A stretch of 57,808 nucleotides of DNA from NCBI GenBank assembly GCA_017656425.1, contig JACDNV010000013.1, positions 1 through 57,808 of the forward strand, written 5' to 3'. The notes under the pieces are model-generated. The model was not told where the DNA came from. It worked only from the letters and a program-made list of their open reading frames with translations, and made no database searches. This stretch comes from Candidatus Neomarinimicrobiota bacterium (lineage in GTDB: Bacteria; Fidelibacterota; UBA2242; B5-G15). Position 1 is the first letter of the stretch. Every line of letters starts with the position of its first letter. Below, piece after piece: positions 6,558 through 7,845 of the stretch. Made by a program: the position numbers and the translations under genes.

Positions 6558-6668
6558 AGAATTGTTAAATTAAGGGTAATGAGTGATGAGAGCATAGCCC
6601 GTGGACAGGCTATACACTGTGAGATTTTTGGAAAAGGAATCAAAGATAAGAAGAAAAAACATGACCTA

Positions 6669-6690
6669 TCCCGATTAGGGATCCTACGGA
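6669..6690 (+). repeat. 22-bp double-hairpin unit, copy A (forward)
   Basis: First hairpin: arm TCCC, loop GATTA, arm GGGA. Second hairpin: arm TCC, loop TAC, arm GGA. The two fill the 22 bp exactly. It is inserted in codon 3 of the reconstructed transposase (TA|T), and removal lets ATG 6661 read through. It is identical to copies D and E. Confidence 0.9.
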
Positions 6691-6723
6691 TAGTATCATA
6701 GCAAATAACAAGTTAAAAGACAA

Positions 6724-6745
6724 TCCCAAGGATCCCTGTGGGAGA
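6724..6745 (-). repeat. 22-bp double-hairpin unit, copy B (reverse, degenerate)
   Basis: On the plus strand it reads arm TCC, loop CAA, arm GGA, then arm TCCC, loop TGTGG, arm GAGA: the reverse orientation of the unit. The AGGATCCCT core is unchanged and the small hairpin keeps three pairs, while the large one has a single mismatch (TCCC can also pair with GGGA across a 3-nt loop). Removal of 22 bp here is needed to connect copy A's frame to the downstream frame. It is the most diverged copy, so the exact boundaries could slide by a base or two. Confidence 0.65.
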
Positions 6746-6996
6746 AAATATTGTACAGCTTCAGAAAGGAAATGGTTTTCTCAGAGGGTTCCTATGGAAA
6801 AAATATTATGAAATCAAGTCATACAGAAAAACAGCCTGTGAGTTTGGTGTAAATGTAAAAGCGGTTCTGAAATGGTTGAAAAGATATCAATGCATGGGAC
6901 TTACTGGTTTAAGAATTTTACCTCGAAGTCCTAAACTTGCCAGGAATAAACTCTCACAAGAAAAGACTGATTTGATAGTAAAGTTAAGAAAGATAA

Positions 6997-7018
6997 TCCG
7001 TAGGGTCCCTAATCGGGA
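6997..7018 (-). repeat. 22-bp double-hairpin unit, copy C (reverse)
   Basis: Plus strand: arm TCC, loop GTA, arm GGG, then arm TCCC, loop TAATC, arm GGGA. It differs from the reverse complement of copies A, D and E at one base. In plus-strand RNA that change makes a U-G wobble, so the small hairpin still pairs. Exact deletion gives codon ACA in KI-TGLGARRL and restores the transposase frame. Confidence 0.9.
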
Positions 7019-7279
7019 CAGGACTTGGAGCAAGAAGATTGAAAAAGGAGTTTAACCTTCGAAAAGAAAAAGAGAGATTAAAACTGTTTGAGGTGATACA
7101 GATGGATGTAAAATATCTTGATGATATACCAGAGTTTTTTAAATACTACTGCAAATACAGACTACCAAGATATCAAATCACAGCAAGGGATGTACGCTCT
7201 GGAACACTCTTTTATTTCTATACATATGAGAAAAGTGTAACATCGACAATAATCTCTGTGAAATTATTGTTTGAGCATC

Positions 7280-7301
7280 TCCCGATTAGGGATCCTACGG
7301 A
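7280..7301 (+). repeat. 22-bp double-hairpin unit, copy D (forward)
   Basis: Identical to copies A and E. It lies between the codons for the first and second catalytic Asp of the transposase. Exact deletion forms codon CTA and rejoins FEHL to SKHGID in frame. Confidence 0.92.
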
Positions 7302-7445
7302 TATCCAAGCATGGAATTGATCCAGAAAAAATAACAATTCAAGTTGATAACGGCTCTGAGTTTAGTGGGATAAGAATACATCACAACAGAGGATTTAAAA
7401 AATATGTCGAAAAGAATTGGAATGCTAAGGTGAAATATATACCTC

Positions 7446-7467
7446 TCCCGATTAGGGATCCTACGGA
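7446..7467 (+). repeat. 22-bp double-hairpin unit, copy E (forward)
   Basis: Identical to copies A and D. It lies between the second Asp and the catalytic Glu of the transposase. Exact deletion forms codon CCA and joins KYIP to PHYPNANADIE, the expected motif order in IS481 transposases. Confidence 0.92.
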
Positions 7468-7695
7468 CACATTACCCCAATGCTAATGCCGATATAGAAT
7501 CTTCTCACAGATTAATCGAAGACGAATTCTACTGCATAGAATCATTCAGCTCAGTAAAAGATTTCCTTGTTAAAGCTTCATCCTACCAATTCTATTTCAA
7601 TTTCCTGAGAGAAAACTCATATAAAAAATTCAAAACCCCGGTAAATATCCTGAAAGATTATAAAATATCCCCGAGTATAGCATTCATGCCTCCTC

Positions 7696-7717
7696 TCCCG
7701 AATAGGGATTCTACGAA
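7696..7717 (+). repeat. 22-bp double-hairpin unit, copy F (forward, diverged with compensation)
   Basis: First hairpin: arm TCCC, loop GAATA, arm GGGA. Second: arm TTC, loop TAC, arm GAA. Of three differences from copies A, D and E, one is in a loop and two are the two sides of the same base pair in the small hairpin (C-G became T-A). Exact deletion forms codon CTA and joins FMPPL to IVDKLLGKN, restoring the C-terminal 41 codons. Confidence 0.9.
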
Positions 7718-7845
7718 TAATAGTCGATAAATTACTCGGCAAAAATCCATTAACCTTTCCGCTTAACCTTAACTATGGCCTGTACCACCATGTACCTGAA
7801 CCTCCCGATATCCCAGCGTATAATTGCACAAATCAATATTACTAA

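Follow-up and report, generated by a model that had tools for sequence, protein, structure and literature searches.

A probable family of ultra-small double-hairpin mobile elements in a Candidatus Neomarinimicrobiota genome

Background

The window analysed here, a stretch of 57,808 nucleotides from contig JACDNV010000013.1 of a Candidatus Neomarinimicrobiota bacterium, holds at 6661..7845 on the plus strand the remains of a transposase gene broken up by a short hairpin sequence that returns again and again. A preliminary description of this locus counted six 22-bp units, restored a 350-codon frame by removing them, and considered that the unit might be a tiny mobile element, an excisable one, or belong to a system for silencing or regulating an IS; it proposed a search of the genome and its relatives for the 22-mer and an alignment with unit-free copies. 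The question is what these units are, how they reached the gene, and whether a gene interrupted in this way is still read. Our answer, to which we give a probability of roughly 0.7, is that the units form a family of non-autonomous, ultra-small double-hairpin mobile elements, with the window gene as a dead IS481-like passenger.

Results and Discussion

Units in the window gene

Five units of the window (6669+, 6997-, 7280+, 7446+ and 7696+) are 22-mers with 0-3 mismatches to TCCCGATTAGGGATCCTACGGA, and none of 100 dinucleotide shuffles contains any match to this 22-mer. Unit 1 (6669..6690, plus strand, 22 bp, target CCTA^TA) is the exact sequence TCCCGATTAGGGATCCTACGGA and is common to six IS481-like copies. 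Unit 3 (6997..7018, minus strand, 22 bp, target CCTG^TT) has one mismatch and occurs also in the copy on contig C22, while unit 4 (7280..7301, plus strand, 22 bp, target CATC^TA) matches exactly and is shared with the copy on C25. Unit 5 (7446..7467, plus strand, 22 bp, target CCTC^CA), again exact, is fused to unit 1 by a deletion in the copies on C6 and C8. Unit 6 (7696..7717, plus strand, 22 bp, target CCTC^TA) carries the stem variant TTC/GAA, and two of its three mismatches make up one paired change in the second stem. For these five the positions first given are right, but the unit at 6724 had been drawn too long, as 6724-6745. Unit 2 is a diverged 20-bp unit on the minus strand, TCCCACAGGGATCCTTGGGA, at 6724..6743; its length is set by unit-free counterparts in the copies on C25, which aligns without a gap, and C15, which aligns with one distant gap, so that not all six are clean 22-bp insertions.

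A further stretch on the plus strand at about 6779..6798, TCTCAGAGGGTTCCTATGGA, differs from TCTCAAAGAGATCCTTCGGA at 5 of 20 positions and is probably a degenerate seventh unit, judging from its sequence and from the better helix-turn-helix match obtained when it is treated as one. Removal of the six intervals as first drawn does leave 1053 nt open, but the 350-codon frame is partly an accident, because the removal of two bases too many at unit 2 is offset by the overlooked seventh unit. With both unit 2 and the seventh unit taken as 20-bp units, a 344-residue reading is obtained, in which the border of the seventh unit was moved by one base, since the canonical borders keep a stop codon. The HTH_28 match of this reading is complete and above its cut-off, scoring 27.2 bits (positions 1-52) where the earlier one gave 21.0 bits (positions 12-52), and the earlier N-terminal reading around 6745-6800 is probably wrong.

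The NCBIfam equivalog NF033577 scores 92.8 bits on the window gene (E 2.7e-26), below its cut-off of 224 for IS481, and for this reason we call the gene IS481-like only. Open homologues in two other genomes (G042 and G029) align with it as two separate blocks; the stretch that they have between these blocks, which lies between the helix-turn-helix part and the catalytic part, is missing from the window gene, and the gene is therefore internally deleted. We infer that it is a dead IS481-like copy which has gathered units, and that the interruptions are not programmed. Elsewhere in the window, positions 1-89 hold an IS256 end with 99% identity to the copy that ends contig C15; further IS256 copies are probably unassembled, as several contigs break in this element.

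Occurrence in the genome and structure of the unit

The genome comprises 2.80 Mb in 50 contigs, of which 2.02 Mb (72%) was read in stretches and the other 28% or so was searched by pattern only. The search for the 22-mer detects 37 copies in the genome at up to 3 mismatches and none of the reversed control pattern, and related genera have units too. In the 2.02 Mb read, 98 units lie within 3 mismatches of the consensus set, compared with 3 for the reversed control; after two doubtful ones are set aside, the catalogue holds 96 units at 52 separate sites, three recombinants being left out of the site count. The units are thus real and far beyond chance, and their concentration in one IS gene, which had seemed singular, is one part of a family spread over the genome. 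Besides the 22-mer there are further forms, namely one of 20 bp (TCCC-GAA-GGGA/TTC-TTC-GAA) and two of 21 bp (TCTC-AAAA-GAGA/TCC-TTC-GGA and TCCC-GAAA-GGGA/CTC-TAC-GAG). No exact unit copies were found in collections of genome contigs and viral contigs, and an Rfam scan returned tRNAs only.

Throughout the genome, the family keeps the design recognised at the outset in the window, two abutting hairpins with nothing between or outside them, 20, 21 or 22 bp in all. The first hairpin has a 4-bp stem, TCCC/GGGA or TCTC/GAGA, and a loop of 3-5 nt, and the second a 3-bp stem and the loop TWC. The loops are changeable and the stems change in step: in 48 distinct unit sequences, some of them from related genomes, 93% of the pair cells are standard, and two-sided pair changes number 32 against at most 19 in 2000 shuffles, a count that leans upward because detection is biased towards paired stems. 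However, unit ends need no structure model wherever an empty counterpart exists, and such sites include the main stem variants (TCCC and TCTC; TCC, TTC and CTC). In the part of the genome read, cognate left and right halves lying apart were not found in unit-like form, except for a few short chance matches, nor was there any longer parent element with separated hairpins.

Outside this genome, related genera carry a few unit copies. By pattern search the TCCC form is present in 4 of 23 genomes of the order, its own included, and in none of the 222 other genomes of the phylum; the units in G018 and G015 have fitting targets. Single matches to the TCTC form in four distant genomes (G032, G112, G113 and G057) are put down to chance, as their flanks do not fit the target. 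Near a unit in G010 (L222 1490-1710) stand other short repeats, of the form GAGACCTCCGGTGAGGCAA / GAGACTCCCGGTGGAGCAA, perhaps a second small palindromic family.

Insertion sites and target preference

The alignment with unit-free copies gives at least 14 unit sites with a unit-free paralogue; the alignments span 50-80 bp and are ungapped at the site, and so the insertion adds only the unit. No constant target duplication is seen, as the first bases of the right flank vary from site to site. Over the 52 sites, C stands at position -4 in 44 (p 1e-25), T at -2 in 42, a pyrimidine at +1 in 45, and A or T at +2 in 47. The target is roughly C-Y-T-N upstream and Y-W downstream, the orientation of the unit being fixed relative to it, and the flanking C-Y-T-N is already present at the empty sites. 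Moreover, a 20-bp unit has entered the second loop of a 22-bp unit (C2:59815 and C19:28412). The IS256 copies ending contigs C15 and C23 are only four substitutions and one 21-bp unit apart in 727 bp, and therefore the movement is recent. On the whole, insertion of the entire 20-22-bp double hairpin is precise, oriented and target-preferring, leaves no duplication, and is both repeated and recent; the clean empty sites, the oriented target, the nested unit, the recent presence/absence difference and the copies in related genera bear out the proposal of a tiny mobile element.

An old, immobile repeat, multiplied only through duplication of the IS elements carrying it, would account for the many sites common to several IS copies. 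It is hardly credible given that the units occupy 52 separate sites, both in several unrelated genes and in intergenic DNA, that exact empty sites exist, that one unit is nested in another, and that related genera have the same target.

Three other ideas about the site were tried. A target hairpin formed from the two flanks was rejected, not rising above shuffles. An apparent antisense bias of the units is mostly explained by the motif, whose frequency on the antisense strand of genes is double that on the sense strand. Stem 2 did not correlate with the target (p 0.74), and a guide that would pair the two was rejected as well.

Recombination between unit copies also occurs, and it shortens IS elements. 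In the IS481-like copies on C6 and C8 the stretch from unit 1 to unit 5 has been lost by deletion, and at C14:9498 a unit has the left flank of C14:174 on one side and the right flank of C14:233 on the other. Such recombination, and the fact that no enzyme was found, speak for passive copying, in which a nascent strand would jump during replication to a hairpin at another place, copy the unit and return, with no dedicated enzyme. We regard this as quite unlikely, since template switching would give a less regular outcome than the exact ends seen at all empty sites and a target that is fixed and oriented. On C14 itself (G000:C14:233-277), two units, one of 22 bp and one of 21 bp, point in opposite directions with only 2 bp between them.

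Host genes of the units

Most unit sites are in genes of mobile elements, including IS481-like, IS256 (NF033543), ISL3 and IS110 genes and shortened IS256 copies; a further host, on C18, is apparently a tyrosine recombinase as read from its translation. Three sites are in other coding frames: one in an S46 peptidase, one in a response regulator and one at the end of a membrane-protein-like frame; some units lie in intergenic DNA. A role in silencing or regulating an IS, as the preliminary description had imagined, finds no support, since units occur also outside genes and within host genes, the latter reading through them in frame.

In the S46 peptidase (L158 8292-10451, G000:C2), whose nearest named relatives are from Candidatus Neomarinimicrobiota MAGs, the unit stands exactly at seven residues, FEESLRE, absent from the aligned orthologues that cover the site. 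The frame is kept by the 20 bp of the unit plus one further base, and the adjoining CTTTC may be this one-base compensation. In the response regulator a 21-bp unit lies in frame inside the Response_reg domain, and in G018 two units are in frame in an open DDE_Tnp_1 frame. Units would pile up in IS and recombinase genes mainly since insertions are tolerated there, while in host genes selection would remove those that shift the frame, so that only in-frame ones survive. If frameshifting units are purged in this way from genes that are needed, the units would be translated rather than removed. As an observation apart, an IS256 end is fused directly to a shortened IS481-like copy at G000:C22:9553-10216, forming a chimeric element.

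These host genes bear on a reading in which interrupted genes would still yield protein, the units being taken out of the RNA or passed over by the ribosome. The ribosome skips the byps of Magnusiomyces mitochondria, which like the units are small mobile elements inside protein genes. In the S46 peptidase and the response regulator, however, the units stand in frame and add residues to the reading frame, as they do in the G018 transposase, and such predicted products would argue against splicing or bypass. We hold this reading to be improbable, and what speaks in its favour comes from the IS256 copies.

Units shared by the IS256 copies

The IS256 frames on C15 and C23 are perfect once the units are left out. 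Compared with the clade on C2, C19 and C3, they show an omega of 0.15 at a dS of 0.36-0.52, and unit sites are common to both sides of the split. Taken alone, this suggests that interrupted IS256 genes stay functional; it favours removal from RNA or ribosomal bypass and counts against the view of the hosts as dead passengers. No uninterrupted IS256 copy is assembled, which favours the same reading, but contigs end inside these copies, and intact ones may be missing from the assembly. Furthermore, the units common to both clades differ by about one base in 65, whereas the genes differ by about 11%, so these units may be younger than the clade split. Indeed, a single change in 65 bp is difficult to reconcile with simple inheritance of the shared units since the split.

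C3 and C23 lack units at some of the shared sites, and the sharing pattern fits later parallel insertion at preferred sites, or excision, as well. In a reading where precise DNA excision turns IS genes on and off, C23 would have lost a unit still present in its near-identical partner C15, and C3 would have lost units common to both clades. The excisable nature suggested by the preliminary description is thus compatible with some IS256 patterns, but separate insertions at preferred sites give the same result and the units are not confined to IS genes. Such a switch is, in our judgement, very improbable.

How the units may move

We return to the mobile element with dead passengers and to its mover. 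The unit may be inserted as single-stranded DNA by a trans-acting HUH/Y1-like enzyme. By analogy we tentatively put such an enzyme, working in trans on a single-stranded intermediate, as the most likely mover and an RNA-mediated process next, because the fixed strand, the hairpins at both ends and the lack of duplication resemble IS200/IS605 and RAYT transposition. It is a more doubtful proposition that the 20-22-nt DNA would be the complete substrate of a trans-acting transposition enzyme, with single-strand insertion, and possibly excision, next to CYTN. Against an HUH enzyme, the unit has no room for a guide sequence beside its hairpins, and stem 2 does not follow the target. The only Y1_Tnp gene found in the genome is a RAYT with different hairpins; situated at C5:26438, it is flanked by those (CACAGGCATTCCTGCCTGTG) and not by units, and we see no link between them. 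The RAYT-like Y1_Tnp sequence (G000:C5:26438-26671; L219 922-3051) is in frame inside a 709-residue reading frame, which is otherwise restriction-modification-like and has its own flanking palindromes, CACAGGCATTCCTGCCTGTG and similar.

With an RNA intermediate, the double hairpin would be copied as RNA and inserted by reverse transcription, as suggested for Allomyces mitochondria. The strong hairpin structure of the unit and its insertion without target duplication, the argument used for Allomyces (PMC2800124), are in keeping with this, but it leaves the oriented, tetranucleotide-like target unexplained, and we consider it unlikely.

Comparison with known systems

How repeats of about 20 bp spread has been an open question since the Allomyces and Nostoc reports, and this genome makes it testable, for in this family the ends are fixed and the empty sites exact, the target is oriented, the stem variants still pair, and one move is very recent. 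In addition, it illustrates how host proteins can acquire tiny in-frame peptides and how IS elements become broken and shortened. If a trans-acting enzyme does work on a substrate of 20-22 nt, this would be one of the smallest enzyme-mobilised transposons known, and interrupted genes would be restorable. Palindromic elements of Rickettsia are likewise small, mobile and found in protein genes, and are several times longer than the units.

The IS200/IS605 elements have terminal hairpins, a target tetranucleotide 5' of the left end and a single-stranded path (PMC6006769). The units likewise enter 3' of a short fixed target, with no duplication and with hairpins at both ends, which is a resemblance and not proof of the enzyme. 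However, IS200/IS605 elements carry, or derive from, a transposase gene, and their enzymes read a guide sequence beside each hairpin (PMC6006769); the unit has neither, there being no bases outside its hairpins and no correlation of stem 2 with the target. REPs and REPINs, tied to the HUH enzyme RAYT, are also small, palindromic and non-autonomous, with a hairpin and a short sequence 5' of its foot (PMC3116915, PMC6006769). That sequence, GTAG or GTGG, lies inside the REP, and REPs are mostly extragenic, whereas the upstream motif of the unit belongs to the empty target: no GT[AG]G is found within the unit at the hairpin foot, the flank having C-Y-T-N instead, and no unit copies flank the RAYT at C5:26438.

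Closer in kind are the very small repeats. Nostoc and other cyanobacteria have small dispersed repeats (SDR; Elhai et al. 2008), which, as described in PMC2884548 and PMC3116915, are bacterial, about 20 bp long, dispersed and thought mobile; they differ from the units in sequence and organism. The double-hairpin elements of Allomyces mitochondria (Paquin et al. 2000), as described in PMC5910586 and PMC2800124, share with the units the two hairpins, the mobility and the absence of target duplication, but are mitochondrial, while the units have a defined target and most of their sites in IS genes of a bacterium. Sponge mitochondria have repetitive hairpin-forming elements, some of which, like the units, are inserted in protein genes without frameshift; these are mostly intergenic, and their apparent double hairpins are tandem single insertions (PMC2800124). 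No such unit family was found in the literature searched, a body that excluded the original Nostoc paper. Overall, with 96 copies at 52 sites, a length of 20-22 bp, empty sites, a nested unit, two hairpins and no duplication, the units have the features of very small mobile hairpin repeats and belong by kind with the SDR and the mitochondrial double-hairpin elements, to which they add a defined target, a modular compensatory structure and a concentration inside IS genes.
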